Shown here: positions 11,131-50,457 of the stretch, in pieces
How the letters are laid out: every line of letters begins with the position of its first letter
Position numbering within the stretch: position 1 is the stretch's first letter
Assembly (NCBI RefSeq): GCF_900230215.1
Contig: NZ_LT907982.1
Coordinates: forward strand, 2,294,001 to 2,358,000
DNA from: Jatrophihabitans sp. GAS493
GTDB taxonomy: Bacteria; Actinomycetota; Actinomycetes; Mycobacteriales; Jatrophihabitantaceae
Direction of reading: 5' to 3'
DNA: 64,000 nucleotides
Notes under the pieces: generated by a model
The model's input: only the letters and a program-made list of their open reading frames with translations
Databases searched by the model: none
What the model was told of the DNA's origin: nothing
Program-made: the position numbers and the translations under genes

Positions 11131-12813
<1,683 letters not shown>

Positions 12814-13563
12814 GTGGTGGTACACGCCGGCACCGCCGCCACCCAGGGCACGTCCGTGCCCGCGGCGGGGGCGGCCTTCGCGGAACTGGCGCCCATGCTG
12901 CGGCGGGCGGTGTCACTGAACGCCGGCGTAAACGTCCGCCTGCAGGGGCGGGGTAACCAGCTAAGGGCCTTGATCTGGCTACCGTTCGACATTCTCGTCG
13001 GCCGGACGGTCTCGGTCGGTGCCAGCAATGCCGGCGCCGCGCCGGAGTTTGACCTGACCGTGGGAGCCTCGGAGTTGCTCGACCGTCTCGATGCCGCCAC
13101 CGACTCGGTGCCGGGATTCTCCGCCGATGAGGCGATTTCGCTGCTGCCCAATCGGGATGCCCAGTGGCGGGCGGCCGCACCGCCGCGAGAGGGGTGGCGA
13201 CGAGTCGAGTCCGTGCCGGGGGCGGTCGTCCGATCGCTGGTAGCGGCCGGCGCCCGTGCTCTGGCGGACGCCGCTGACCGGGAGGGCATCCCCGGAGGTC
13301 AGCCGCGGGCCGAGGTCACTGAGGCGCTCCTCGATTCGGTCGTCCTGACCCTCGAAGAGAATCCGACCACCGGGCAGGGGGCGACCACAGCGCTGACGGC
13401 GGAGGTGACGCTGCGGATGATCACCGCGGTCACCCGCATGGGATTCCTCCCCGACGACGCCCAGGTCGCTGTGGACATCTGCGGTCGGTGGACCCGGGTG
13501 ACCGCTCCCTTCGGCAACTCCTACCGCGAACGCTCGCCCCTCGGCATCTCACTACTGACCTAG
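12814..13563 (+). CDS. Conserved hypothetical protein downstream of ettA
   Basis: A 249-residue protein beginning at GTG immediately after the EttA stop. It has no transmembrane helix and no recognised motif. It is rich in Ala, Val and Arg, with two helical C-terminal blocks (about 130-160 and 165-210) separated by a short loop. The abutting start suggests translational coupling to EttA and possibly a ribosome-related role, but this rests on position alone. It converges with the alpha-glucosidase gene, overlapping by 4 bp. Confidence 0.75.
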   Translation: MVVHAGTAATQGTSVPAAGAAFAELAPMLRRAVSLNAGVNVRLQGRGNQLRALIWLPFDILVGRTVSVGASNAGAAPEFDLTVGASELLDRLDAATDSVPGFSADEAISLLPNRDAQWRAAAPPREGWRRVESVPGAVVRSLVAAGARALADAADREGIPGGQPRAEVTEALLDSVVLTLEENPTTGQGATTALTAEVTLRMITAVTRMGFLPDDAQVAVDICGRWTRVTAPFGNSYRERSPLGISLLT

Positions 13564-15179
13564 GCCAGCGGGCTCTCGGCCTTGAGCCAGACAGCGGTGT
13601 TCGCCGGCAGCACACCTTCAGACTCCAGCGGGGAGGAGGCCAGCAGCACCTCACCCGGCGGCAGGACGGCGTCGAGGTCGGAGAAGTTGACCGCGACCAC
13701 GAAATCGTCGCCTCGGGTGTAGGCCAGGCAGCCTTCCGGCGCCCCGATCCAGTTGAAGTCGCCGCCATGAATCGCCGGCGTCTCAGCGCGCCGCAGCAGG
13801 GCCCGCCGATAGAGGGACAGGGTCGATTCTTCGTTGTCGAGCTGGCGCTCAACGGTGACCGACTCCCAGGAGGCCGGCATCGGAAGCCAACTCGTCTCGT
13901 TGGTGGTGAAGCTGAAGGGCGGCTGGTGACCCTCCCACGGGAGGGGGACCCGCTCGCCGTCGCGGCCCCGTTCGGTGTACCCGCTGCGCTTCCAGGTGGG
14001 GTCCTGCAGCACCTCGTCCGGCAGATCGACATTCTCAAGGCCGAGCTCGTCACCGTTGTACAGGTAGACCGCACCGGGCAGCGAGAGCTGAATCAGTGCC
14101 GCCGCCCGTCCCCGAGCCGAGCCGATCGCACCGCCGCCGTAGCGCGTGGTGTGCCGCACCACGTCATGGTTGGAGAGCACCCAACTGCAGGGCGCTCCGA
14201 CCGCCGCCAGCGACTTGAGGGAGTCGGTGATGGCCTGGGTGAAGGACTCCAACCCCCACTTGGCTTCAATGAGTTCAAAGTTGAAGGTGAGGTTCAGCTC
14301 ATCTTCGCGCACATAGAGCGCCAGTCGCTCCGGATTCGGAACCCACGCCTCTCCGACCGCCATCCGGTCGCCGGAGTAGGAGTCGAGGGTGCGGCGGAAC
14401 CGGCGGTGAATGTCGTGCACCGCGTCGTCGTCCCAGCGTGGATCGTCCAGCGCCGGCATCGCCTCGTTGAGCGCCCCGAGGGTCGCTAGGTTCATGTCGG
14501 GGAGGCCATCGGGTTTGGCCATGCTGTGCGCCACGTCAACCCGGAACCCGTCAACTCCGCGATCGAGCCAGAAGCGCATGACGCGCTCGAATTCATCCGG
14601 GATCTCCGGGTTGAGCCAGTTGAGGTCGGGTTGCTCGGGCGCGAAGATATGCAGGTACCACTGCCCAGGCTCGCCGTTCGCCTCCGTGACGCGGTGCCAG
14701 GCCGGGCCGCCGAAGACCGACGGCCAGTTGTTGGGTGGCAGTTCACCGTTGGCCCCGTGCCCGTCGCGAAAGATGAAGCGCTCCCGCTCGGGACTGCCGG
14801 GGGCGGCCTTCAAGGCGGCCTGGAACCAGGGGTGCTGATCGGAGAAGTGGTTCGGGACGATGTCGACGGTGATCCGGATGCCCCGCTCGTGGGCGGCGGC
14901 CAGCATCGTGTCGAAGTCGGCCAGGGTGCCGAAGATGGGGTCCACGTCGCACGGATCGGCGACGTCATACCCCCCGTCGGCCATCGGTGACGTGTAGAAC
15001 GGGCTCAGCCAGATCGCATCGATCCCGAGCAGTTTCAGGTAGTCCAGGCGGTCGGTGACACCGGGGATATCGCCGATGCCATCACCGTTGCCGTCGGCGA
15101 AGCTCTTCGGATAGATCTGGTAGAAGACGGCACTGCGCCACCACTCCGGTCCGGCCATTGCTTCGGTGATCTCGTCCAC
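13560..15179 (-). CDS. aglA: GH13 alpha-glucosidase / oligo-1,6-glucosidase
   Basis: A 539-residue alpha-amylase-superfamily enzyme. Family regions are visible: DIVPNHFSDQHPWF (region I), GFRVDVAHSM with the nucleophile Asp (region II), VGEAWVP with the acid/base Glu (region III) and SNHDVVRH with the transition-state Asp (region IV). The QIYPKSFADGNGDGIGD motif marks the oligo-1,6-glucosidase/alpha-glucosidase subfamily. It hydrolyses terminal alpha-glucosyl bonds of malto- or isomalto-oligosaccharides in the cytoplasm, as no signal peptide is present. It corresponds to mycobacterial Rv2471. A LacI-type operator lies 33 bp before the start, so induction by a sugar is likely. Confidence 0.94.
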   Translation of the reverse strand: MDEITEAMAGPEWWRSAVFYQIYPKSFADGNGDGIGDIPGVTDRLDYLKLLGIDAIWLSPFYTSPMADGGYDVADPCDVDPIFGTLADFDTMLAAAHERGIRITVDIVPNHFSDQHPWFQAALKAAPGSPERERFIFRDGHGANGELPPNNWPSVFGGPAWHRVTEANGEPGQWYLHIFAPEQPDLNWLNPEIPDEFERVMRFWLDRGVDGFRVDVAHSMAKPDGLPDMNLATLGALNEAMPALDDPRWDDDAVHDIHRRFRRTLDSYSGDRMAVGEAWVPNPERLALYVREDELNLTFNFELIEAKWGLESFTQAITDSLKSLAAVGAPCSWVLSNHDVVRHTTRYGGGAIGSARGRAAALIQLSLPGAVYLYNGDELGLENVDLPDEVLQDPTWKRSGYTERGRDGERVPLPWEGHQPPFSFTTNETSWLPMPASWESVTVERQLDNEESTLSLYRRALLRRAETPAIHGGDFNWIGAPEGCLAYTRGDDFVVAVNFSDLDAVLPPGEVLLASSPLESEGVLPANTAVWLKAESPLA

Positions 15180-15685: not shown

Positions 15686-16708
15686 TCACTCGGTCGCCCC
15701 ATCGCCACCGTCGACGCCGCCGCCGACACCCCGGCCGGTACCCGGAGGCGGTGTCAGCGTGTCGCCGCCCGGGGTAACCCGCTCCTCGACGCTCTCGGCC
15801 ACCAGGGCTAGGTCCAGCTCGTCGAAGTTAGCCTTGATGCGCCGCCGAAGCTCACGCGCGGTCCGCCACTGCTGCAGCGGACGGACGCGGGCGACCAGCC
15901 GGATCACGGTCTCGTCCCGGGTGAAGGATTCCACTCCCTGAAGCTGGGGCTCGCCCAGGAAGACACCAGCCCATTCCTGCTCGCCGTGCAGCTGCTCCGC
16001 CGCTCGCATGATTGCCTGCGACGCCGGCTCGATCTGGGCCGACGCGGCGATCGGGATGTCCAGCACCACCTCGGCGTACCCCTGGCTCTGGTTACCCACC
16101 CGCACCACCTCGCCGTTGCGGACGTACCAGACGGTGCCATACACATCGCGCAGCTGGGTGGTGCGCAGCCCTACCGCCTCGACGACGCCGGTCGCCTTCT
16201 CGAAGTCGATCACGTCACCGACGCCGTACTGGTCCTCCAGGATCATGAAGATCCCGGCCAGAAAATCCTTGACGACGTTCTGTGCGCCGAAGCCGATGGC
16301 CACGCCGACGATAGACGTCCCGGCGATGAACGGCGCCATGTTGATGCCGAGCTCGTCCAGGATCAGCAGCACGCTCACCGTCAGGATGACGAACGAGGTG
16401 ATGCTGTTCAGCACCGATCCGATGGCCGCCGATCGCTGCCGTCGACGCTCTGACACCAGCCCGGCCGACTCGAGGAATCCGTTCTGGCTGACGCGCTCCT
16501 TCAGGGGGTTCAGGATTCGCGGAACCGACCCCTGGCTCACCGAATTCGTGATGCGATCGACGAAGCGGTGCGCCAATTTGCGCAGCACGACGGCGATCAA
16601 AACGATCGCCAGGATCTTCAGCGGGCGCGCGATTAGGACGTCGGTGTGGTCTTCGAGTAAACGTGACTCTGCTAGCACCTGCGGATACACAGTTGCCCAC
16701 TTTGCCAT
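15686..16708 (-). CDS. MscS-family mechanosensitive ion channel
   Basis: A 340-residue protein with hydrophobic helices near residues 30-45, 90-110 and 117-140, followed by the MscS beta domain. The TM3/beta junction (FIAGTSIVGVAIGFGAQNVVKDFLAGIFMI, near residues 128-157) has the glycine/alanine packing of MscS pore helices and the AGIF/LED motif leading to FEKATGVVEAVGLRTTQLRD. It opens under membrane tension to release osmolytes. The C-terminus is an acidic/glycine-rich tail. It is divergent from the HNH gene with a 49 bp gap. Confidence 0.93.
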   Translation of the reverse strand: MAKWATVYPQVLAESRLLEDHTDVLIARPLKILAIVLIAVVLRKLAHRFVDRITNSVSQGSVPRILNPLKERVSQNGFLESAGLVSERRRQRSAAIGSVLNSITSFVILTVSVLLILDELGINMAPFIAGTSIVGVAIGFGAQNVVKDFLAGIFMILEDQYGVGDVIDFEKATGVVEAVGLRTTQLRDVYGTVWYVRNGEVVRVGNQSQGYAEVVLDIPIAASAQIEPASQAIMRAAEQLHGEQEWAGVFLGEPQLQGVESFTRDETVIRLVARVRPLQQWRTARELRRRIKANFDELDLALVAESVEERVTPGGDTLTPPPGTGRGVGGGVDGGDGATE

Positions 16709-18257: not shown

Positions 18258-19550
18258 TCAGAGCGACGGAACCCAGCAGTTGTTGGTGAAGGACTTGCCA
18301 TTGAACCGGTCGGTGAAGAACTTGGTGACGTCCGGGATGGCGTTGTTGTCCGTGGTGAGGTGCTCGGCCGCGTAACCCTGGTTCCACTGGGTCTGGATAC
18401 CGGCCTTGCAGTAGGCATCGCGCGTCGCGTTCTCGGTCTTGGTGTTGATGACCTCTTCGGCCGCACCACGGTACTGGAAGACCGGGAAGTTGATCGTGTA
18501 CTGCGCGCCCGAACCCGGCTTGCCGATGTTGACGCCGAGCTTCTGGCTGTCCAGGTACTGGCCCACCGTGTAGCCGCTCGGGTCAGCGAGGGCGTAGAGC
18601 TGGTCCAGCGTGAGTCCCTTGGTGGTGAAGTTCTCCACCTTGCCGCCGAGTTGGGTGCCGAGGGTTCCGAGGAGGCAGAGCGTCTTGACCTGAGCGAAGG
18701 CCGACGTGCCGGCGCTGTTGATGTACTGGTTCACCGGGAACGACGGGTGCGAGGTGATGATGCCGACGACCGCGTCAGCCAGGAAGCCGAAGAACGCGCC
18801 GCCCTCGAGCTGGGAGGCGGTCAGCTTCAGGTCACCCGGGACGCCACCCGCCGCGTCGCCGACCACGTTCAGGTCAGGGGCGTAGCTGGCCGCGAGCTGG
18901 GCGGCCCAGAGGGAGGCCTGGCCACCTTCGGAGTAGCCGGAGAGTCCAACTGCGAGACCGGCGGAGAGGCCGTCGCCGGGGACCTGGGTGGCGGTACGGG
19001 CGATGTCCAGCATCGCGTGTGCGGCGTTGGCGCCGACGACGTAGGGGTGAACCTGGCCGTTGAGGTAGCCGATGCCATCAGTGGCGGCGACCGCGAAGCC
19101 GGCCTTCAGGAAGGAGGCGATGTTGTCGCCCTCGTACTCGTCCTGGTAAGCGCCGGCAAGCTGCTTGGAGAAGGCGCACTGCGAGCCGAGGCCAAGCGTG
19201 CCGGGGTTGAAGGCGATGACCGGGCGGGTGCCCTTGCCGGTCCAGGCCGCGGTCGGAACCGCCACGGTGCCGGAGACGGCCACCTTGTTTCCGTTGGAGT
19301 CGATGGAGGCGTACTGGACCTGCCAGGCCTTCATCGAGACGCTGCCCGGTACCTGGCTCAGCGTCACCGATCGGCAGGCCAGCAAGGTGCCCGGCGCGCT
19401 GGTGACGCTGCTAGGCGAGTTGTAAATGCCGTTGGCATCTGCGTTGCATGAGTTGAGAGCTGATGCGGCCGTCCCAGTTGCCGCGATCGCTACTACCGCA
19501 CCCGCACCACAAGCGAGCGCTGCAACGGCTGAAATAAACCGTTTCTTCAC
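18258..19550 (-). CDS. Secreted lipase/esterase (LIP family alpha/beta hydrolase)
   Basis: A 430-residue exported hydrolase. The N-terminus KKRFISAVAALACG followed by a hydrophobic stretch and ASA forms a Sec signal peptide. The nucleophile elbow is GYSEGG (serine near residue 197), and NPGTLGLGSQCAFS near 120 matches the oxyanion region of secretory lipases such as Candida LIP and actinobacterial inhA/LipJ-like enzymes. Aspartate and histidine partners probably lie in the last 120 residues (an HLTTDNNAIPD segment near 400). The GTG start was chosen over an upstream ATG because it gives a clean signal peptide with a GGGAAC upstream. It likely hydrolyses triacylglycerols or esters outside the cell. 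Confidence 0.85.
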   Translation of the reverse strand: MKKRFISAVAALACGAGAVVAIAATGTAASALNSCNADANGIYNSPSSVTSAPGTLLACRSVTLSQVPGSVSMKAWQVQYASIDSNGNKVAVSGTVAVPTAAWTGKGTRPVIAFNPGTLGLGSQCAFSKQLAGAYQDEYEGDNIASFLKAGFAVAATDGIGYLNGQVHPYVVGANAAHAMLDIARTATQVPGDGLSAGLAVGLSGYSEGGQASLWAAQLAASYAPDLNVVGDAAGGVPGDLKLTASQLEGGAFFGFLADAVVGIITSHPSFPVNQYINSAGTSAFAQVKTLCLLGTLGTQLGGKVENFTTKGLTLDQLYALADPSGYTVGQYLDSQKLGVNIGKPGSGAQYTINFPVFQYRGAAEEVINTKTENATRDAYCKAGIQTQWNQGYAAEHLTTDNNAIPDVTKFFTDRFNGKSFTNNCWVPSL

Positions 19551-37692: not shown

Positions 37693-37763
37693 CCCGGCGG
37701 CTTGAAACGGCCTGAAACGGCGGCTCGAAACGGCTGAACGGCTTTGAACGGCCCTGATACTGG

Positions 37764-37805
37764 AGCGGGCGACGGGAATCGAACCCGCACAATCAGTTTG
37801 GAAGT
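37764..37805 (-). repeat. 3' half of tRNA-Gly(TCC): attachment-site scar
   Basis: On the minus strand this reads from the anticodon loop (CTTCCAA, anticodon TCC) through a 3' anticodon arm, the T arm GCGGG TTCGATT CCCGT and the acceptor strand CGCCCGC. The 5' half (acceptor 5' strand, D arm, 5' anticodon stem) is absent and the match stops at the anticodon loop. This is what remains when an element integrates with a crossover in the 3' part of a tRNA gene. The intact tRNA should lie at the opposite end of the element; none is found in this window. Confidence 0.85.
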
Positions 37806-40545: not shown

Positions 40546-40660
40546 GGACGGATGATAGCGCTAGCCCCTGACGCGCCGAGCCGGGTCTTCCTGGTCCCAG
40601 TCGACGCGCGCATAACGACGCCCGGCGGCCCGGCTGCGGTAGCCAGGGTGAGCGCATAGT

Positions 40661-41075
40661 CGGCGTTGTGCCGACGTCGGCACAACGCCGATTGTGCCGA
40701 CCTCAGGATTGTGCCGACCTTGTGGCAGATTGCCCTGTGGGACGGGGGCTTCGGGCGCGCGAGGTCGGCACAATCCACGGGTCTCGCACGCTCGCGCCGG
40801 GCGTGTGGTCCGCACTGATCGCCGAGTAGGCGATCAAGGTGCGGGCGGAACCCATCGACGTGAATATCAAGCACGGGTGGACGTCCAGATGCCGAGGCAC
40901 ACGGATGATCTGCAAGGCAATACGCGTGAGGCCGTCGCCCCATCTCAGTCGCGGCCGATCTCGCGGCTCGAGGACGACCGCGGATTGTGCCGACGTCCAA
41001 GACGGCGAATCCCTTGCCGGCCAGGCGATCCAGTCGTCAAGTCGGCACAATCCTGAGGTCGGCACAATCGGCGTT
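40661..41075. repeat. Cluster of eight TTGTGCCGAC boxes bounded by inverted repeats
   Basis: The decamer TTGTGCCGAC occurs forward at 40666, 40692, 40709 and 40985 and reversed at 40676, 40764, 41041 and 41058. The first pair forms a perfect 30-bp palindrome (40661-40690). A 35-bp sequence with two boxes (40684-40718) recurs exactly inverted at 41041-41075, with 17-bp spacing between boxes in both. The internal about 320 bp has two more boxes. It could be an operator or iteron array, a replication or partition site, or a MITE-like element. Confidence 0.85.
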
Positions 41076-42638: not shown

Positions 42639-42827
42639 GCTCGGGCGGCTCCGCAGGCTCCGCCGCCCGAGCCGTCTCCTCCCCCACCTGGCTTCTCAGT
42701 GTGGGCCGGGACGACCTGCGCGCAAGGGCGCTCCGCAAGCTCCGCGTCACACGCGACCGGGCTTCGCCCGGCCCTTGCGCTCCGGCCGCCTAATCCGGCC
42801 CTTGAAAAGCGCGCCAGGTGGGGGAGG
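42639..42827. repeat. Structured repeat, copy A
   Basis: A multi-branched inverted-repeat element. A first hairpin (42639-42649 with 42662-42672, 11 bp) is followed by an outer 15-bp stem (42678-42692 with 42813-42827). That stem encloses a 10-bp stem (42720-42729 with 42771-42780) and an apical hairpin CCGGGCTTCGCCCGG. Copies B and C share the order of helices, the GGGCTTCGCCC apex and the GAGGAA...GGGG tail, while helix sequences differ with pairing kept. It sits about 75 bp before the leader ORF and operon containing parB. It may act as RNA or as folded single-stranded DNA. Confidence 0.85.
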
Positions 42828-42854
42828 AACAACGGGGTCATCCTTCATCACTCA

Positions 42855-42868
42855 TATCGGTTCCGATA
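42855..42868. promoter_or_regulatory. TATCGGnnCCGATA palindrome, site 1
   Basis: TATCGGTTCCGATA, perfect palindrome, 32 bp before an 11-codon leader ORF; followed by ACCCGAAAG, as at other sites. Confidence 0.85.
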
Positions 42869-42900
42869 CGACCCGAAAGTTTCGCTTTACGGAGAGTCCA

Positions 42901-42936
42901 ATGACGAAGTTCAACCCCGCGCCCGCCGCCCTCTAA
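42901..42936 (+). CDS. Possible 11-residue leader peptide
   Basis: The frame MTKFNPAPAAL-stop has a GGAGAG seven bases before the ATG and is flanked by two TATCGG palindromes, one 32 bp upstream and one starting 4 bp after its stop. A translated leader in front of the parB operon is plausible, but the frame is too short to prove coding by composition. Confidence 0.35.
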   Translation: MTKFNPAPAAL

Positions 42937-42940
42937 CCCA

Positions 42941-42954
42941 TATCAGCACCGATA
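42941..42954. promoter_or_regulatory. TATCGGnnCCGATA palindrome, site 2
   Basis: TATCAGCACCGATA, one mismatch in the left arm, 29 bp before the next gene's ATG. Confidence 0.7.
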
Positions 42955-42983
42955 CAGACCGCTACATACCGAAGGTGTACACC

Positions 42984-43265
42984 ATGACCGCACATGCCCA
43001 CCAGCCCATCGAGCCTGCCCGTCAGCCGCCGTACCTCGCCGGGGATCGCGTGCAGATCCTCTACATGAGCGAGCGCGGCACCATCCTGGCCGACGCCTAC
43101 GTCACCGCCGTGTTCCGGCGACCGGACGGCAGCTTCGGCGTCAACGCCGTCATGTCCGACGCCCGGGCCAGCTTCCACCTCTTCCCCGCCACCGGGGACG
43201 CAACGACGATCGCCCACCAACCCCCAGTGCGCGTTGGCGTGGACCACGCCGAGGCGAGCGGGTAA
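42984..43265 (+). CDS. Small hypothetical protein of the accessory module
   Basis: A 93-residue protein with a central beta-rich core (YLAGDRVQILYMSERGTILADAYVTAVFRR, about residues 15-45) that resembles a small SH3-like or Tudor-like barrel, and proline-rich flanks. No family is recognised. GAAGG lies 10 bp before the ATG. It is the first full-size gene after the palindrome pair and is followed after 4 bp by the next gene, so they form an operon with parB further downstream. Confidence 0.65.
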   Translation: MTAHAHQPIEPARQPPYLAGDRVQILYMSERGTILADAYVTAVFRRPDGSFGVNAVMSDARASFHLFPATGDATTIAHQPPVRVGVDHAEASG

Positions 43266-43269
43266 CTCC

Positions 43270-43644
43270 GTGACCACCTGGGACGAGATCGCCAACGCCG
43301 AGAAGGCCTTCATTCGTGCGACCTTGCGCCGCACCGCCGCCCAGCAAGAGCGGCTGTTCTACGACGCCACGGACGCCAGCGCGAAAGGCCAGGCCGGAAG
43401 ACGGGCCACGGCGCTGCTCGCCGCCATCGACCAGCTCACCGCAGCACCGCCGCCAGCTCCCCTCTGGCGCGAGATCGCGCCCAACGGCCGCATCGCCAGC
43501 GACAGCGCCGCCATCGACCGCATCGCGCACTGGCTGTGCGACCCGGAATGGGGTCTCGGCATGTTGGAAGACATCGCAGACGTCATCACCTCGACCGGCC
43601 GTGACCTCACCGGCGCCCACGAGCCCACCTGGGCACGCCACTAG
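43270..43644 (+). CDS. Small helical hypothetical protein
   Basis: A 124-residue, mostly helical soluble protein (TTWDEIANAEKAFIRATLRRTAAQQERLF...). It contains a C-terminal WLCDPEWGLGMLEDIADVI segment. No catalytic motif or membrane helix is seen. The GTG start lies just after the preceding stop, indicating an operon. The next palindrome begins 3 bp after its stop. Confidence 0.65.
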   Translation: MTTWDEIANAEKAFIRATLRRTAAQQERLFYDATDASAKGQAGRRATALLAAIDQLTAAPPPAPLWREIAPNGRIASDSAAIDRIAHWLCDPEWGLGMLEDIADVITSTGRDLTGAHEPTWARH

Positions 43645-43647
43645 ACC

Positions 43648-43661
43648 TATCGGACCCGATA
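43648..43661. promoter_or_regulatory. TATCGGnnCCGATA palindrome, site 3
   Basis: TATCGGACCCGATA, a perfect-arm site 28 bp before the parB-family start; a second CCCGATA half follows at 43666. Confidence 0.85.
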
Positions 43662-43689
43662 CGGCCCGATATAACCGAAGGAGAACGCA

Positions 43690-45132
43690 GTGACAACCAC
43701 CAAGAACGGCACGACGACGGACACCACCGGCATGGTCTACCTCGACCTACCGATCGCTGAACTGGCCGACCATCCGGCCAACCTCCGATTCGACCTGGGC
43801 GACGTCTCCGACCTCGCGGCCTCAATCGCGGAGAACGGCCTGATCGAGCCCATCATCGTCGCCCCGCTGGCCGCCGAAAACGACACGAGCGGCGGCTACC
43901 TCATCATCGCCGGTCACCGACGGACCGCCGCGTGCCGCCAGATCGGCTGGGTGACGGTCCCGGCGATCTCGCGGCCTGACCTGGCCAGCACCGATGGGAC
44001 GGTGAAGGCCGATCACCTGTTCCTCATGCTCGACGAGAACACCCAACGCGAAGGCCTTACCACGCAGGAAGTCAGCGCCGGGCTCGCGCAGCTGGCCGCG
44101 TTCCCCGGCCTAACTCCAGCCAAGGTGGCCAAGCGCACCGGGCGGGATGTCGAGGCCGTCAAGCACGCGGTGGCGGCCGCGAAGCTGCCCGAGGACGTGC
44201 GGCCCCTCGTTGTCGCGGATGCGCTCACCCTCGACCAGGCCGCCGAGCTGGCCGAGTTCGAGAATGACCCCAAGGTCTACGCCCGGCTGATCAAGAAGCT
44301 CGCAGCCGGTGGCTGGGGAGCCTCGCACATGATCAGCGAGGAACGGCGCAAGCGCGACACCAACGCCGAGAAGTCCGACATCATGGCCGACCTACGCAGG
44401 CAGTCCGTGCGGGTCGTGGGCGCACCGAATCAGTGGGACTTTCCCCGCCGGACTCGGATGCAGCCGCTCAGCAACCTGCGCACGACGGCCGGGAAGAAAG
44501 TCACCGCCGCCGCGCACGCCAAGTGCGACGGACACGCGGCGTTCCTACGCATCGACCAGTACAAAGCCGTTGGGAAGCGAATCACCGTCAATCACGTCTG
44601 CACCAGTCCCGAAGACCATGGCCACACCCTGGACGAGCAGCACACCGGCCGCGACAGCGGCCCAACGCTGACCGAGGAACAACAGGCGGCCGAAGCCGAG
44701 CAGAACGAAGCCATCCAGCTTGGCTGGGCCGCAGCGGCCGAAGTTCGCTGGCAGTGGCTCGTCACCCTGTTCCGGGCCAAACAGCTACCCGACGCCCTCA
44801 CCCAGGCCGCGCTCGGCGCGGACCGGCCCCGTGACGAGGCCAGGCTGCTGCACCTGCTCACCGGACGCGAGGCAGCCGATCCCGAGGACGATGAGGCCAA
44901 CCAAGCCGCCTACGACGAGCTGATCGTCAAAGACACCGCGACCAGGCTGCACCGGCACACCGTCGCCTACATGGTGCTGTCCATTGAGGATGACGCCCAG
45001 CGCCTAGACCCCACCCGGTGCGACAGCTGGGGCGGCCCCGGCACCGCGCAGTGGCTGCGACGCCTGGCTGAAGTCGGCTACGAGCTCGGAGACGCCGAGC
45101 AGATCGTCACGACCACCTGGCCCGCCAAGTAG
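43690..45132 (+). CDS. parB: ParB/RepB/Spo0J-family partition protein
   Basis: A 480-residue ParB-family protein. The N-terminal domain has LPIAELADHPANLRFD, the ENGLIEPIIVAP strand and the CTP-binding arginine motif GHRRTAACRQIGW near residues 77-89, followed by DENTQREGLTTQEV. A helix-turn-helix-like region follows at about 140-190 (LTPAKVAKRTGRDVEAVKHAV). The C-terminal 200 residues are helical and unlike chromosomal ParB. It probably loads on a centromere and segregates the element with ParA, and, like KorB of RK2, may also repress genes by binding dispersed operators. GTG start. It is separated from parA by three genes, unlike classic parAB operons. Confidence 0.9.
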   Translation: MTTTKNGTTTDTTGMVYLDLPIAELADHPANLRFDLGDVSDLAASIAENGLIEPIIVAPLAAENDTSGGYLIIAGHRRTAACRQIGWVTVPAISRPDLASTDGTVKADHLFLMLDENTQREGLTTQEVSAGLAQLAAFPGLTPAKVAKRTGRDVEAVKHAVAAAKLPEDVRPLVVADALTLDQAAELAEFENDPKVYARLIKKLAAGGWGASHMISEERRKRDTNAEKSDIMADLRRQSVRVVGAPNQWDFPRRTRMQPLSNLRTTAGKKVTAAAHAKCDGHAAFLRIDQYKAVGKRITVNHVCTSPEDHGHTLDEQHTGRDSGPTLTEEQQAAEAEQNEAIQLGWAAAAEVRWQWLVTLFRAKQLPDALTQAALGADRPRDEARLLHLLTGREAADPEDDEANQAAYDELIVKDTATRLHRHTVAYMVLSIEDDAQRLDPTRCDSWGGPGTAQWLRRLAEVGYELGDAEQIVTTTWPAK

Positions 45133-45140
45133 CCAGCGCG

Positions 45141-45173
45141 GACCGGCCGGGGCAGCTACCGCCCCGGCCGGTC
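45141..45173 (+). terminator. Terminator after parB
   Basis: A 13-bp perfect stem (GACCGGCCGGGGC and its complement) with a 7-nt loop begins 8 bp after the parB stop. The next palindrome follows at once, so a new transcript starts there. Confidence 0.85.
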
Positions 45174-45174
45174 C

Positions 45175-45188
45175 TATCGGCACCGATA
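45175..45188. promoter_or_regulatory. TATCGGnnCCGATA palindrome, site 4
   Basis: TATCGGCACCGATA, followed by ACCCGAAAGGA and an ATG 20 bp after the site. Confidence 0.85.
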
Positions 45189-45208
45189 CAACCCGAAAGG
45201 ACACGATC

Positions 45209-45568
45209 ATGAGCCGGCCCGCCGACCGCTACTGCTGCTCCGCCGAGCACCCGCCGACCTACGAGCGCCGCGGAGCACTGCTCAGGCAGCACGACAGCCA
45301 AGTCTGCGACTGTGGCCACCGCTGCATCAGCCACGGCAGCTATGACCACCGACGCGCCTTCATCGGCGTCGGACTCGGCCCCTGCGGCTGGCCCCGCTGC
45401 GACTGCGACCAGTTCCTCAGTAGCGGCACCAGCTCCGACACCGGCAACACCCCCGTGCCCGACTACGACCGTGAAACCAGCGACGAACAGATCAACACCA
45501 TCTGCGACGACTGCCAGGCACCCCCGGGCGAGCCCTGCCACTGGGCCTGCTCGTCGTGGTGGGCCTAA
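45209..45568 (+). CDS. Cysteine-rich zinc-finger-like protein
   Basis: A 119-residue protein with 13 cysteines. The C-terminal CDDCQAPPGEPCHWAC is the short zinc finger seen in many actinobacteriophage and plasmid proteins (CPxCxAxPGxxC type). Two further clusters (CDCGHRCISH and CGWPRCDCDQF) could bind a second metal. A nucleic-acid or regulatory role is likely, but the target is unknown. A TATCGG site lies directly upstream and another, within a larger hairpin, directly downstream. Confidence 0.75.
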   Translation: MSRPADRYCCSAEHPPTYERRGALLRQHDSQVCDCGHRCISHGSYDHRRAFIGVGLGPCGWPRCDCDQFLSSGTSSDTGNTPVPDYDRETSDEQINTICDDCQAPPGEPCHWACSSWWA

Positions 45569-45572
45569 CGGC

Positions 45573-45598
45573 GGGCTGTATCGGCACCGATACAGCCC
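45573..45598. promoter_or_regulatory. TATCGGnnCCGATA palindrome, site 5, inside a 12-bp hairpin
   Basis: The 14-bp palindrome TATCGGCACCGATA at 45579-45592 is extended to 12-bp arms (GGGCTGTATCGG and complement). It lies 4 bp after a stop codon, where it could act as operator, terminator or both. Confidence 0.8.
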
Positions 45599-45635
45599 GA
45601 ACCACCCGCGACCACCGCCGAGGCAGCCTGACCCC

Positions 45636-45677
45636 GTGGCGGCCGGGCCGGCGAAGAGCAACCGCCCCGGCCGCCAC
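45636..45677 (+). terminator. Terminator before structured repeat B
   Basis: A 12-bp perfect stem (GTGGCGGCCGGG and complement) with an 18-nt loop. It isolates copy B and ardC from the upstream gene. Confidence 0.75.
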
Positions 45678-45723
45678 AACAGATAGCCCCGAAGGGGCGT
45701 ACGGCGCTACGCACCGACTCATG

Positions 45724-45917
45724 CGCCGACCCGGCTTCGCAAGCTGCGCCGCGTCGGCGTTGACCTCCCCCACCTGGCGTCCCAGTGTCGGCCGGCAGGC
45801 CTTCCGCTGCAAGGGCGCTCCGCAAGCTCCGCGTCACACGTGATCAGGGCTTCGCCCCGACCCTTGCAGCTCCGGCCGGACCTAGGCCGATGCGCCACTG
45901 CGCCAGGTGGGGCGAGG
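45724..45917. repeat. Structured repeat, copy B
   Basis: Same architecture as copy A. The first hairpin has different arms (CGCCGAC/GTCGGCG, 45724-45730 with 45753-45759). The outer stem (45764-45778 with 45902-45917) repeats the left 15-mer of A exactly but has one bulged C on the right. The inner stem (45806-45815 with 45861-45870) is GCTGCAAGGG/CCCTTGCAGC, where A has GCGCAAGGGC/GCCCTTGCGC, so two base pairs change on both sides. It ends 94 bp before the ardC start. Confidence 0.85.
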
Positions 45918-45977
45918 GAAATGCGGGGCACCCCTCAGATCCGCACCACGCCAGTCCCGCTCACCGTCTCAGCACCG

Positions 45978-45991
45978 AATCAGTACCGATA
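45978..45991. promoter_or_regulatory. TATCGGnnCCGATA palindrome, site 6 (degenerate)
   Basis: AATCAGTACCGATA, with a perfect right arm and a weak left arm, followed by ACCCGAAAGGA and the ardC ATG 20 bp later, the same arrangement as site 4. Confidence 0.65.
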
Positions 45992-46011
45992 CAACCCGAA
46001 AGGACACGATC

Positions 46012-46893
46012 ATGAGCCAAAACACCAAGCAGGGCAAGACACCGGAACAGCGCAAGGCCGAACGCGAGGCGTTGCTAACAACACTGGGGGAGAAGGTCGC
46101 CACGCTCGCCAGCTCGGCCGAGTGGGTCAACTATCTGCGGTTCATGACCGCGCTTCGCCGCTACAGCTTCAACAACCTCATGCTCATCGCCGTGCAGTGC
46201 CCGCACGCGACCCAGGTCGCCGGGTTCCGCAAGTGGCAGCAGCTCGGACGTCAGGTCCGCAAAGGCGAGAAGGCCATCAAGATTCTCGGCTACTCCACCA
46301 AGAAGGTCACCAAAACCGACCCGGCCACGGGGGAGGAGATCGAGGACCGGGTTACTCGTTTCCCAGTGCTATCGGTATTCGACCTCAGCCAAACCGACGG
46401 CGACCCGAATCCCACAACCACGTACACACTGCCGACCGGTGACGGCCCGGCCGGGACGCTTGACCGTCTGATCGGCTGGCTCACCAGTGAAGGCTGGACC
46501 GTGAAGGAAGAAGCCCTGGCCGGGGGACTGGAGGGCTACACCGACCACACCCGGCACCTCATCGTCACCAAAACCGACCTCGAGCCCGCAGCGCGCCTCG
46601 TCGTCCTTCTGCACGAGACGGCCCACGCCCTGCTACACGTCAACGATGCCGAGTACGTGGCGCACCGCGGCCTGTGCGAGACCGAGGCCGAATCAACCGC
46701 CTACGTGCTGGCCAACCTGCTCGGCATCGACGTCGACGCCAGCTCGATCAGCTACATCGCCGGATGGTCCAATGCCAAACCCGACGTACTCACCGCTGCC
46801 GCGACCAACGTGCTGCGCGCCGTCAACACGATCGCCGCCGCACTCGGCCTCGACGAGGACGAGCGGGCGGGGGAGGAGGCGAATGCAGCCTGA
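46012..46893 (+). CDS. ardC: ArdC-type antirestriction protein (ssDNA-binding plus metallopeptidase-like)
   Basis: A 293-residue protein with an N-terminal ArdC-like single-stranded-DNA-binding domain (YLRFMTALRRYSFNNLMLIAVQCP..., about residues 40-115) and a C-terminal zinc metallopeptidase-like domain with HETAH at residues 201-205 and a downstream ETEAESTAY helix supplying the third ligand. ArdC of IncW plasmid pSA protects incoming DNA from restriction, and homologues occur in many conjugative plasmids. Placed behind copy B and a palindrome, it is likely made early after transfer. A strong terminator follows. Confidence 0.9.
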   Translation: MSQNTKQGKTPEQRKAEREALLTTLGEKVATLASSAEWVNYLRFMTALRRYSFNNLMLIAVQCPHATQVAGFRKWQQLGRQVRKGEKAIKILGYSTKKVTKTDPATGEEIEDRVTRFPVLSVFDLSQTDGDPNPTTTYTLPTGDGPAGTLDRLIGWLTSEGWTVKEEALAGGLEGYTDHTRHLIVTKTDLEPAARLVVLLHETAHALLHVNDAEYVAHRGLCETEAESTAYVLANLLGIDVDASSISYIAGWSNAKPDVLTAAATNVLRAVNTIAAALGLDEDERAGEEANAA

Positions 46894-46898
46894 CCCCC

Positions 46899-46934
46899 GG
46901 CCCGGGCGCGGCAACAGAACGCCGCGCCCGGGCC
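46899..46934 (+). terminator. Terminator after ardC
   Basis: A 14-bp perfect stem (GGCCCGGGCGCGGC and complement) with an 8-nt loop starts 5 bp after the ardC stop. Confidence 0.85.
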
Positions 46935-46983
46935 GCAAACCCGACACCCAGCCCCGACGACACGCCGACGGGCTATCCGACCC

Positions 46984-47017
46984 ATTCGGAACCGATACAG
47001 ACCTATTATCTCCGATA
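46984..47017. promoter_or_regulatory. TATCGGnnCCGATA palindrome, site 7, with a second weak copy
   Basis: ATTCGGAACCGATA (46984-46997) and the partial TATTATCTCCGATA (47004-47017) lie 20-50 bp before parA, followed by GCGAAAGGA. Confidence 0.65.
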
Positions 47018-47037
47018 AGAGCGAAAGGACTCAGCGC

Positions 47038-47853
47038 ATGCGCGTCACCGCAGTGGTCAACCAGAAGGGCGGCGTCGGCAAAACGACGACCACCATCAAC
47101 CTGGGCCGTGCCCTGGCCAGGCTCGGCCGCCGCGTCCTGCTCATCGACATCGACGAGCAAGCCGCACTTACCTTCCACTTCCTAGGCGACGCAGCCGAGG
47201 AAATGGCGAGCCTGTATGAGGTCATCGGCTCTCGCCCCAGCGCCACGATGGCCGAGACGATCGTCATGAGCGACGTCCCTGGCATCTGGGTCATGCCCGC
47301 CAACGACGACCTCGCCCTGCTCAGCAATGAGCTCGTCGTGGCCGGCGTCGGCCGGGAATCCCGCTTGGCCAAAGAACTCGCCAAGCAGACAGCCGACTAC
47401 GACGACGTACTCATCGATTGCCCGCCGTCGCTGAACCAGCTCACCGTCAACGCCCTCGTCGCCGCGCACCAGGTCCTCATCATCACCGAGCCCGAGCTCT
47501 ACAGCGGCCGGGGTGTAGTGAAGCTCCTGGACACCATCGACGGTGTCCGCGAGCAGCTCAACCCGCTGCTGGCCGTCGCCGGCGTTTTGATCAACAAGTA
47601 CGACTCAAGCATCGACATCCACGTCCGGCGATCGGTCGAGATCCGCGAACAGCTCACCGCCGGCGACCCGCCGATCACCGTCATGCCGACGATCGTGCCG
47701 CGCTGGACCACCGTTATGCGCACCACCGACGCCGGCGCCGACGTAGCCGACTTCAACCACCCGGCCGCCCGAAAACTGCTCGGCTTCTACGCCGATATCG
47801 CCCGCACGCTCCTGGACCCGAGCGTGCCCGTCCTCGAGGAGACCGTCCGATGA
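47038..47853 (+). CDS. parA: ParA-family partition ATPase
   Basis: A 271-residue deviant-Walker ATPase: KGGVGKTTT at residues 10-18 with the signature Lys10, Walker A' LLIDIDEQAALT, and Walker B DDVLIDCPPSL. It lacks the N-terminal DNA-binding extension of type Ia ParA, so it is a type Ib-like or Soj-like protein. It forms a nucleoid-bound gradient that moves the partition complex of the element. Its stop overlaps the start of the small partner gene (ATGA), typical of parA with a small centromere-binding protein. Confidence 0.94.
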   Translation: MRVTAVVNQKGGVGKTTTTINLGRALARLGRRVLLIDIDEQAALTFHFLGDAAEEMASLYEVIGSRPSATMAETIVMSDVPGIWVMPANDDLALLSNELVVAGVGRESRLAKELAKQTADYDDVLIDCPPSLNQLTVNALVAAHQVLIITEPELYSGRGVVKLLDTIDGVREQLNPLLAVAGVLINKYDSSIDIHVRRSVEIREQLTAGDPPITVMPTIVPRWTTVMRTTDAGADVADFNHPAARKLLGFYADIARTLLDPSVPVLEETVR

Positions 47854-48299
47854 CCAGCACGCCACAGCCACTGAACATGCGGCGTGGCGGTGCCAAGCGC
47901 GGCAACAACGGCTCCTACGTCACCCCGGCCCCTGTCGCACCCGCCGCCGAAGTATCGGAACCATCGGACCGTATCGGAACCGATACAGCCCGGACGACAT
48001 CTGCGCCGGCCCGCGGCCGCCGCACCGTCACACCCAGACCCAGTGACGCCGCCGCCCGCGCCAAGGCCGCCTACGACGCCAAGCCCAAGGTCATCTTCCG
48101 CGCGGTCGACGAAGACACCGCCTACAAACTCAAGGCGATGTACCAAGACCAGCTGCACAAGCCCGGAGGCATCGAAGGCTACAGCGAGTGGGGTCGGGTC
48201 ATGCTCAAGCAGCTCGTCGACCAGTATGAACAGGCCAACGGCCCACTACCGACCGGCCACGACATCCAGCTGCGACCCGGCCGCGTCGCCGGAACCTGA
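47850..48299 (+). CDS. Small ParA-partner, putative centromere-binding protein
   Basis: A 149-residue protein coupled to parA. Its N-terminal half is disordered and basic (LNMRRGGAKRGNNGSYVTP), and its C-terminal 60 residues are folded and helical (KVIFRAVDEDTAYKLKAMYQDQ, then EWGRVMLKQLVDQYEQANG), a pattern seen in small partition proteins that stimulate ParA through a flexible N-terminus. A perfect TATCGG palindrome lies within its own coding sequence. Whether it or the large ParB-family protein binds the palindromes is open. Confidence 0.65.
   Translation: MTSTPQPLNMRRGGAKRGNNGSYVTPAPVAPAAEVSEPSDRIGTDTARTTSAPARGRRTVTPRPSDAAARAKAAYDAKPKVIFRAVDEDTAYKLKAMYQDQLHKPGGIEGYSEWGRVMLKQLVDQYEQANGPLPTGHDIQLRPGRVAGT
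47972..47985. promoter_or_regulatory. TATCGGnnCCGATA palindrome, site 8, inside a gene
   Basis: TATCGGAACCGATA, perfect palindrome, within the linker of the ParA-partner gene; a near-copy TATCGGAACCATCGG lies 19 bp upstream. A coding position argues for a centromere or spreading role rather than promoter control alone. Confidence 0.8.
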
Positions 48300-48307
48300 C
48301 CGCGTCG

Positions 48308-48805
48308 ATGACTAGACCAGGACCACCTGGCCAAAGGACGCCACTACCAGCCATCAACGCCAACCAGGTCCCGTCGCTGAGCATCGTCGAACATGCCCTC
48401 AGCGATGAGGACACGTCCTACCGTGAACGTGCAAACGGCATTGACACGAAGGCAGGCGTCATCCTCAGCGCGGCCGGCGTCATAGTGACACTCGTCGGCA
48501 TCCACTCCAGCGTCGCCGGGCTCGTGGGGCAGTTCATCGCTATCGCCGCCGGCGCCGCCGCGGTGTGGACACTCAAGCCCCGCGTCGACAAGGCAATAGG
48601 CATTCGCCAGCTGCGTGACCGCTACCTCCAGGAGAACGAACTCAGCACGCGGATGATCCTGCTCAACACCCGCCTCGACATCCAGGAGAAGAACGAAAAA
48701 TACCTGTTCCGCAAAGCCCGCTGGCTCAAGATCTCCTCCAGCCTCCTGCTTTGCTCCGCTACCGCCATCGCCATCGGCGGTAGCCTCAACGTGATCTCGC
48801 ACTGA
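48308..48805 (+). CDS. Pycsar-effector-like/SLATT-like membrane protein
   Basis: A 165-residue protein with an N-terminal helix containing RERANGIDTKAGVILSAAG, two adjacent transmembrane helices (about 48-66 and 69-88), a long coiled helix and a third transmembrane segment (141-161). The ID-TKAGV motif leading into paired helices resembles PycTM and SLATT modules, membrane effectors of nucleotide-activated antiphage systems. No cyclase gene is beside it, so a defence role is only a suggestion. It begins 8 bp after the ParA-partner gene and is followed by four micro-genes. Confidence 0.6.
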   Translation: MTRPGPPGQRTPLPAINANQVPSLSIVEHALSDEDTSYRERANGIDTKAGVILSAAGVIVTLVGIHSSVAGLVGQFIAIAAGAAAVWTLKPRVDKAIGIRQLRDRYLQENELSTRMILLNTRLDIQEKNEKYLFRKARWLKISSSLLLCSATAIAIGGSLNVISH

Positions 48806-50073: not shown

Positions 50074-50457
50074 ATGAGCTTCATCATCATCGAGGGCAAC
50101 ATCACCGACGAGGCCACGCTGCGCGAGTTCCCAAGCAAGCGCACCGGCGAGCTGGTCCCGATCAGCAACGCCACCGTCGCCGTCAACGATCGTCGCTACA
50201 ACGCCGAGACCGAGCAGTGGGTCGACACCGGCAAGACCTTCTACGAAGTCACCGTCACCGGAACCGAAGCGATCCACTTCGCCGCTACCGCAGCCAAAGG
50301 CGCGCGAGTCATCGTGGCCGGCAACGTCTACGTCGAGGAGTACCGCGACAACGAGGGCAACCAGCGCAGCCGACGCCGGATCTCGGCCGACCACCACGGA
50401 CTCTCCAGCAAGTTCGCGGCCGCGACCACCCGCCAGCCCGCCAACACCAGTAACTGA
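50074..50457 (+). CDS. ssb: Single-stranded DNA-binding protein, plasmid type
   Basis: A 127-residue OB-fold protein: IIIEGNITDEATLREF, the segment ISNATVAVNDRRYN and FYEVTVTGTEAIHFAATAAKGARVIVAGNVYVEEY are typical SSB strands. It ends in QPANTSN without an acidic tip, so it probably protects single-stranded transfer DNA rather than recruiting repair proteins. It is clearly different from the chromosomal paralogue at 10.5 kb. CCGAAAGGA precedes its ATG as in other module genes, but no TATCGG palindrome does. Confidence 0.9.
   Translation: MSFIIIEGNITDEATLREFPSKRTGELVPISNATVAVNDRRYNAETEQWVDTGKTFYEVTVTGTEAIHFAATAAKGARVIVAGNVYVEEYRDNEGNQRSRRRISADHHGLSSKFAAATTRQPANTSN

Follow-up and report, generated by a model that had tools for sequence, protein, structure and literature searches.

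The stretch of DNA analysed here (the window), 64,000 nucleotides of Jatrophihabitans sp. GAS493 (contig NZ_LT907982.1, positions 2,294,001 to 2,358,000), carries a set of genes among which a 14-bp palindrome recurs, and we argue that these palindromes are probably operators of the small protein encoded at the end of parA in the same set. Positions are those of the window unless marked as contig positions, and window-based numbers above 64,000 fall outside it. The genes lie on the plus strand, beginning with one for a 93-aa protein without a family match (42984..43265) and, 4 bp past it, one for a 124-aa protein without a convincing match (43270..43644). They continue with genes for a 480-aa ParB-family protein with ParB_N and HTH_ParB domains (43690..45132), a 119-aa Cys-rich protein lacking a convincing family match (45209..45568) and an ArdC-like protein (46012..46893) that matches ArdcN at 9e-14, has an IrrE-like peptidase domain 0.1 bit below the cut-off and is 48% identical over 281 residues to a Xylanimonas plasmid protein. 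Then come a 271-aa ParA ATPase (47038..47853), its 149-aa partner (47850..48299) and, farther on, a single-strand binding protein (ssb; 50074..50457, the start codon read from the translation).

This gene set belongs to an integrative and conjugative element (ICE). Its left end is attL (37760..37804), a 45-bp perfect direct repeat of the end of a tRNA-Gly gene, and its right end is attR (contig 2407964-2408008; window-based 113964-114008, hence outside the window; L127:11964-12008), which a tyrosine integrase gene adjoins. The two repeats bound 76.2 kb, of which ~50 kb lies past the window edge. Searches (tblastn) with the proteins of two related plasmids located, in the order in which those plasmids have them, MobC, a relaxase of the MobA/VirD2 type, a TraM-recognition protein, a coupling protein, an M23 peptidase and, before the last, an SCO6880-type ATPase. 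With att repeats at a tRNA gene, an integrase, a relaxase, a coupling protein and a VirB4-like ATPase all present, the element is an ICE whose transfer is predicted from its genes, and the element described in the original prediction, which was made from the letters of this DNA, is therefore its left part.

Eight palindromes had been listed in that prediction and all eight were found. Five have perfect arms: site 1 (42855..42868), 32 bp 5' of the start of an 11-codon mini-ORF; site 3 (43648..43661), 28 bp 5' of the parB-like gene; site 4 (45175..45188), 20 bp 5' of the 119-aa gene; site 5 (45579..45592), the one within a larger hairpin, with arms of 12 bp in all, 10 bp past the stop codon of the 119-aa gene; and site 8 (47972..47985), the one in a coding sequence, that of the ParA partner. 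Site 2 (42941..42954), 29 bp 5' of the 93-aa gene, has one mismatch, and site 6 (45978..45991), 20 bp 5' of the ArdC-like gene, and site 7 (46984..46997), 40 bp 5' of parA, have two each. The expected placement 20-35 bp before start codons thus holds in a slightly wider form, 20-40 bp, for six of the eight and not for 45579 and 47972, and the sequence CCCGAAAGGA, said to follow the sites, is complete at 45175 and 45978 only. All eight agree in T, C and G of the left arm, in CCGATAC and in the CC after it. A second CCGATA stands as a direct repeat at 43656/43666, 46992/47012 and 92858/92868, in steps of 10, 20 and 10 bp. That the palindromes serve as hairpins, of RNA or of single-stranded DNA, before ribosome-binding sites is scarcely credible: although site 5 does fold, with its 12-bp arms, most sites as read from the sequence would pair over no more than 5 bp, around a loop of 4 bases, and across the eight window sites the left arm is looser and the right arm much better kept, unlike a required stem.

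Genes without a site of their own are the 124-aa gene, the parA partner, a 165-aa gene at 48308 and ssb; the first three follow closely behind other genes, which is why no site would be expected before them if they are read within operons.

The sites are far too many for chance, which the count in block 42800-48000 excludes. The block holds 5, 6 and 8 sites at no more than 0, 1 and 2 mismatches, respectively, and shuffled versions of it (n=500) hold on average 0.000, 0.008 and 0.106 (maxima 0, 1 and 3). At up to three mismatches the whole window has 26 sites against a shuffle mean of 18.7, which is not unusual because three mismatches are too loose a criterion. The perfect palindrome TATCGGnnCCGATA occurs five times in the 4,879,921-base genome, always within window positions 42855-47985; with up to one mismatch there are 11 places genome-wide, 7 in the ICE and 4 elsewhere, the latter no more than the 5 given by a reversed control pattern. 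The sites are confined to the ICE, and a motif spread over the chromosome, the outcome that was to count against the original prediction, is ruled out by the zero perfect sites outside it. Among 397 genomes of the order, own included, the 15-mer TATCGGnnCCGATAC is present in 20, and forward matches exceed two in the own genome alone. The control, which is the word reversed and also a palindrome, reaches 6 copies in one of the order's genomes and 4 in another, so that clusters of other palindromes do exist.

There may be a ninth site, with one mismatch, at contig 2386850 (window-based 92850) in the transfer region of the same ICE, 17 bp past the SCO6880-type gene and 111 bp before a minus-strand ORF of 169 aa. 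It is likely, though not sure, to be real, since only 0.08 such sites would be expected in the ICE by chance.

Confinement to the ICE also bears on the notion that some other regulator of the ICE or of the host binds the palindromes. For a host regulator one would expect sites elsewhere, yet there is no perfect one outside the ICE. Within the ICE, the remark in the original prediction that the module encodes no other repressor agrees with our family searches of the module, but beyond the window the ICE encodes a protein with an XRE-type helix-turn-helix (HTH_3, 7e-14) and an IrrE-type peptidase domain (contig 2369928-2371067), and the survey of the ICE covered neither all small ORFs nor every small DNA-binding protein. 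XRE proteins bind short palindromes, which makes this one eligible; XRE-type repressors also usually control themselves, and no site with up to two mismatches lies near its gene. It has no homologue in 13 motif-bearing relatives, and we regard another ICE or host regulator as an improbable binder. The gene forms a pair with one for a 279-aa protein (contig 2369092-2371067; L125:13092-15067), and the pair has no homologue in 13 related plasmid stretches.

Comparison with plasmids gives a clue to the binder. The window ParB has counterparts in several actinobacterial plasmids, 27-30% identical over 88-95% of its length (figures from the 19 fullest of 357 records), and the window ParA is up to ~41% identical to plasmid ParA proteins over at least 90% of its length (35-41% in 8 loci). 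In many of these plasmids the same module recurs, composed of ardC, nrdH, ssb, parA and, right after parA, a small gene; some add a parB-like gene. We searched the gaps of these modules for over-represented words without a prior motif; palindrome scans of whole GC-rich loci were swamped by codon-like words, and scans of annotated gaps worked. In loci with the ParA-partner pair the gap palindrome is TAATAGTACTATTA, with 6-base arms and a 2-base centre, the same 6-2-6 design as in the window. It occurs in plasmids of, for example, Miniimonas, Paenarthrobacter, Leifsonia, Glutamicibacter, Xylanimonas, Rathayibacter, Cryobacterium and Curtobacterium, where it precedes ardC, ssb, parA and small unknown genes and where the small gene overlaps or follows parA. 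The motif that was predicted to lie beside homologous par genes in other elements is there in design, together with the ParA-partner pair, but as a different word.

We counted TAATAGTACTATTA at up to two mismatches in 29 loci with a partner homologue found by alignment or profile (20 of a first group and the profile matches L052, L059 and L072-L078; the weak profile matches L079 and L080 were excluded). At least 4 sites were present in 10 loci, one in 4 and none in 15, and 60 palindromes of equal composition gave means of 0.00-0.07 per locus. Some loci that lack TAATAGTACTATTA have repeats of their own, a CGCAAA-type repeat in 18-bp steps in L085 and a CTTAAT-type repeat in L052; by eye, L088 and L089 have CTATTA-like half-sites and L081 has a looser copy of the palindrome before parA. 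No convincing repeat was found in L059, L084 or L072-L078.

In the relatives the position of the palindrome suggests how it may act. Among 83 sites from 12 loci picked for carrying the motif (excluding L050, a near-copy of L049, and L087, a near-copy of L056), 65 lie 11-45 bp upstream of a start codon as judged by a crude start finder; the sites are not independent, several coming from repeated paired units and related plasmids. In 17 of the 83 a TTG stands exactly 17 bp upstream of the palindrome, and in 4 the distance is 18 bp; the other offsets from 10 to 44 occur at most 4 times, and 62 of the 83 have no TTG at either distance. If the TTG belongs to a -35 box, the right-half TACTAT, after a spacer of 17 bp, takes the -10 position, so that the equivalent site of the relatives, as read from their sequences, overlaps the predicted -10 box and a bound protein would have to compete with RNA polymerase. 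A purely centromeric role has no need of such an overlap. According to that alternative the sites are only a dispersed centromere, bound by the partner for ParA-driven segregation, with gene control a side effect or absent; it would accommodate 45579 and 47972, which are away from gene starts, and repeats near the par operon, direct as well as inverted, are the reported targets of type Ib centromere-binding proteins (PMC5016525). We consider it very improbable, given that 6/8 sites lie 20-40 bp upstream of start codons and that parS of pSM19035 is reported to require four contiguous repeats for full activation of ParA (PMC9499535), which single palindromes do not offer.

In relatives, many sites also come as pairs, spaced 32-34 bp, on either side of a small inverted repeat and upstream of a gene (L049 12060/12092; L053 48551/48585, 49265/49299 and 49531/49565; L054 15823/15857; L055 4059/4093), and such pairs may be bridged by protein or folded as a hairpin.

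Two proteins had been put forward as binder, the large ParB-family protein and the small ParA partner, either of them coupling partition to gene expression; the comparison favours the partner and the coupling and speaks against the large protein. Were the 480-aa ParB-family protein to bind the sites and repress operons, as KorB does on RK2, it would have in its favour a site 28 bp before its own gene, its ParB_N and HTH_ParB domains and the precedent of KorB, a ParB that silences RK2 genes (PMC11790492). However, tblastn found no ParB homologue in 11 loci that bear the motif or a variant (L049, L050, L051, L053, L055, L056, L057, L082, L083, L086 and L087), of which L049, L055, L056 and L057 are complete plasmids, L053 covers 50,000 of 50,407 bases and six are partial stretches. 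Conversely, TAATAGTACTATTA is missing from all six plasmid stretches that have a ParB homologue (29-31% identity) and no partner homologue; these have distant ParA proteins only, and they and the other ParB plasmids (L015-L016 among them) were taken from the top of the 357-record list, not at random. ParB and motif do occur together in L054 and L090, but operators that travel with the ParB gene, as would be expected of a KorB-type regulator, were seen neither in the 11 loci nor in the six stretches. In the window, moreover, two genes separate parB from parA. We conclude that ParB is an unlikely binder and judge its gene to be a target instead. Nor do ardC and ssb seem to be needed, as the annotated stretch L083 has the motif and lacks both.

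Some of the ParB plasmids have repeats of other kinds. In L015, L047 and L060, clusters of the palindrome GTGATATCAC lie near the parA of a different, smaller parA-partner pair and are probably another centromere or operator word; the gap scan returned a longer repeated element in L048 and nothing convincing in L016 and L058.

The protein that remains is the ParA partner, whose gene forms an operon with parA: its start at 47850 overlaps the end of parA at 47853 by 4 bp, and the same overlap is seen in L049, L051, L054 and L055. The two relatives' partners that were tested with Pfam match PF18064 (centromere-binding ParB C-terminal) at 5e-27 and 8e-8, and a profile of nine partners, in which the window protein is one row, matches PDB 3no7 (3e-11), which we take to be the ParB of pCXC100. 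By eye, the window protein has the strand K-V-x-F, an S-x-W that starts the second helix and a tail N-G-P-x-P...PGR, and its model is strand-helix-helix, with a mean pLDDT of 53 for the whole protein and 71 for the C-terminal domain. The predicted DNA-reading strand appears to vary with the word: KVSFYQ, KVAYYQ and KTSFYQ go with CTATTA halves, KMGYYA (L056 and L087, near-copies) with AATAGRCCTATAA, and the window's KVIFRA goes with CCGATA, identical to CTATTA at positions 1, 5 and 6 and different in the middle; the pattern comes from few independent lineages and carries no statistical test. A partner homologue with the strand KVSFEQ is also found in a plasmid of Microbacterium amylolyticum (L091:5905-6231), with one site and no ParA in the 12-kb stretch, and is possibly an orphan regulator.

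On this evidence we propose that the sites are operators, perhaps centromere sites too, of the 149-aa product of the gene that overlaps parA, a predicted ribbon-helix-helix (RHH) protein that would repress the entry genes and its own operon, and we put the probability of this at about 0.65. Each CCGATA half would be read by one partner dimer through its beta-strand. In the resident ICE, partner bound to the sites just 5' of the ribosome-binding sites would hold the 93-aa, parB-like and 119-aa genes, ardC and the parA-partner operon low. On conjugative entry the incoming DNA would find no repressor, and the absence of the partner would lead to a burst of anti-restriction and other establishment functions that lasts until the partner is made; later, the partner together with ParA may stabilise the excised circle. 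In one respect the ICE displays what an establishment regulon should, namely one operator word, confined to the element, before several genes that include ardC and before the operon of the proposed repressor itself.

Several observations weigh against this proposal. Most concern the window partner itself, which is only 17-30% identical to its relatives in alignment and has no Pfam, NCBIfam or PHROG match of note, nor a match to PF18064 at E<=1. Against the relatives' profiles (18 and 26 sequences), 35 of 2000 and 84 of 5000 shuffles scored equally well, and hhalign gave P ~0.01, so that a significant profile link was not reached. A fold search with the C-terminal domain gave low-score proteasome and ferredoxin-like rows and no RHH chain among the matches listed; since it started from a single-chain model, in which a dimer cannot show, it does not weigh either way. 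Nearer relatives of the partner were found neither in plasmids nor in viral contigs, and the 397 genomes of the order yielded its own copy and one weak N-terminal match (3e-4). Given the weak sequence match and the modest models, we claim that the partner works like PF18064 proteins but stop short of assigning it to that family. Other points concern the sites. No TTG lies 10-44 bp upstream of any of the 8 window sites and no -35 box was seen there, so that promoter overlap in the window is suggested by the shared geometry only. Site 8 is within a coding sequence, site 5 comes after the end of a gene, and ssb has no site upstream. Among the relatives, the 15 of 29 partner-bearing loci without TAATAGTACTATTA at up to two mismatches include L081, whose strand is KVSFYQ, and L059, whose ParA is homologous, and L057, also with KVSFYQ, has one site only.

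In related searches, ParB gave nothing in viral contigs. ParA gave two distant loci in the genome contigs and matches in 377 of the 397 genomes of the order, the best listed being 42-50% identical apart from the own copy; these are probably chromosomal ParA proteins.

The closest known counterpart of the proposed switch is Reg_p576 with its EGeRS2 operators, of the Bacillus pLS20-family clade II plasmids, for which the published model has the genes repressed in the donor and expressed in a burst once in the recipient (PMC8708921). Like the partner, Reg_p576 is a predicted ribbon-helix-helix repressor, with paired operators at several establishment promoters including that of ardC (PMC8708921). 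It differs in that its operator is a direct repeat, TTATCCCnnTTATCCC, beside the -35 box, whereas that of the window element is an inverted repeat, in that the accessible part of the account does not describe Reg as a ParA partner (PMC8708921), and in that it belongs to Bacillus plasmids and not to an ICE with actinobacterial plasmid relatives. The omega protein of pSM19035, an RHH ParB, is similar in being a small ParA partner with sites over several promoters and in joining partition to gene control (PMC9499535). However, its sites are reported as 7-10 consecutive heptads (WATCACW) at copS, delta and omega (PMC9499535), in contrast to the single 14-bp palindromes found here at many genes and with an entry-gene set. 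Type Ib ParB proteins of PF18064, to which the two tested partners of plasmid relatives belong, share with the window partner the position after parA, the size, a disordered front part and the order strand-helix-helix, predicted in the window protein, but by sequence the window protein falls short of the family; in the literature searched, we did not find wide operator use at entry genes described for PF18064. Finally, KorB of RK2 and ParB of NAH7 are partition proteins reported at operators of transfer or maintenance genes (PMC11790492, PMC12421886), the latter as an activator of transfer genes (PMC12421886). Both are large ParB proteins, of the kind that the comparison speaks against in the window element.

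A ParA partner that jointly represses the establishment genes of its element, with words specific to the lineage and in both an ICE and actinobacterial plasmids, seems to be new: titles and abstracts of the openly licensed literature, the scope of our search to the exclusion of subscription papers, gave no earlier report of such a role. It is tempting to extend the idea, and we do so tentatively, as something possible but doubtful, to a broad group of actinobacterial conjugative plasmids and ICEs. In these, the ParA partner would be the master switch of establishment, its word re-coded from lineage to lineage along with its beta-strand, and anti-restriction, the handling of single-stranded DNA and segregation would form one regulon induced on entry; if the partner reads double-stranded DNA only, hairpins would be left free to serve as promoters on the incoming strand. 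Entry genes of conjugative elements help to decide whether incoming DNA survives restriction, and their control has been worked out in few plasmids. If the proposal is true, the level of one protein links survival on entry to inheritance, which would explain why entry genes and par genes are kept side by side. It also leads to a testable rule for reading sequences, in which the -10 box holds a 14-bp palindrome whose letters vary with the partner's beta-strand, and it opens a route to listing establishment genes of unknown function in Actinobacteria.

Hairpins of the kind that such promoters might use are present in the window. Two large elements, diverged and GC-rich with outer arms of ~16 bp, lie at 42670..42835, just 5' of site 1, where the first is a possible entry promoter, and at 45760..45920, 5' of site 6 and the ArdC-like gene. 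A genome search with the DNA of the first copy matched only itself and the second (87% over ~111 of 181 bases). The gaps that hold them fold with z values of -3.8 and -4.3, and the same folding of 22 comparison gaps (two from the window and 20 from relatives) gave z from -0.6 to -8.5 (30 shuffles each throughout). We regard the hairpins as possible candidates for single-strand or entry promoters; the entry genes are oriented toward the relaxase side, as would be compatible with their being transcribed from the strand that comes in. Single-strand promoters (Frpo/ssi) are reported for leading regions (PMC11541004), and EGeRS1 repeats are described as inverted-repeat elements before entry genes (PMC8708921). 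Both resemble the window hairpins as large inverted repeats upstream of entry genes; they differ from them in that no -35 or -10 box was identified in the window hairpins, which are separate from the 14-bp sites, and no oriT was located.

An unrelated inverted-repeat element is found in the Mycetocola plasmid L048, in four minus-strand copies (12655-12830, 14811-14990, 16005-16180 and 18964-19140) with a mean column identity of 86%, before the nrdH, DUF3846, DprA-like and parB genes. In the window itself, to the left of the site-bearing module, positions 40600-41070 contain short repeated words that give similar ORF translations on both strands.

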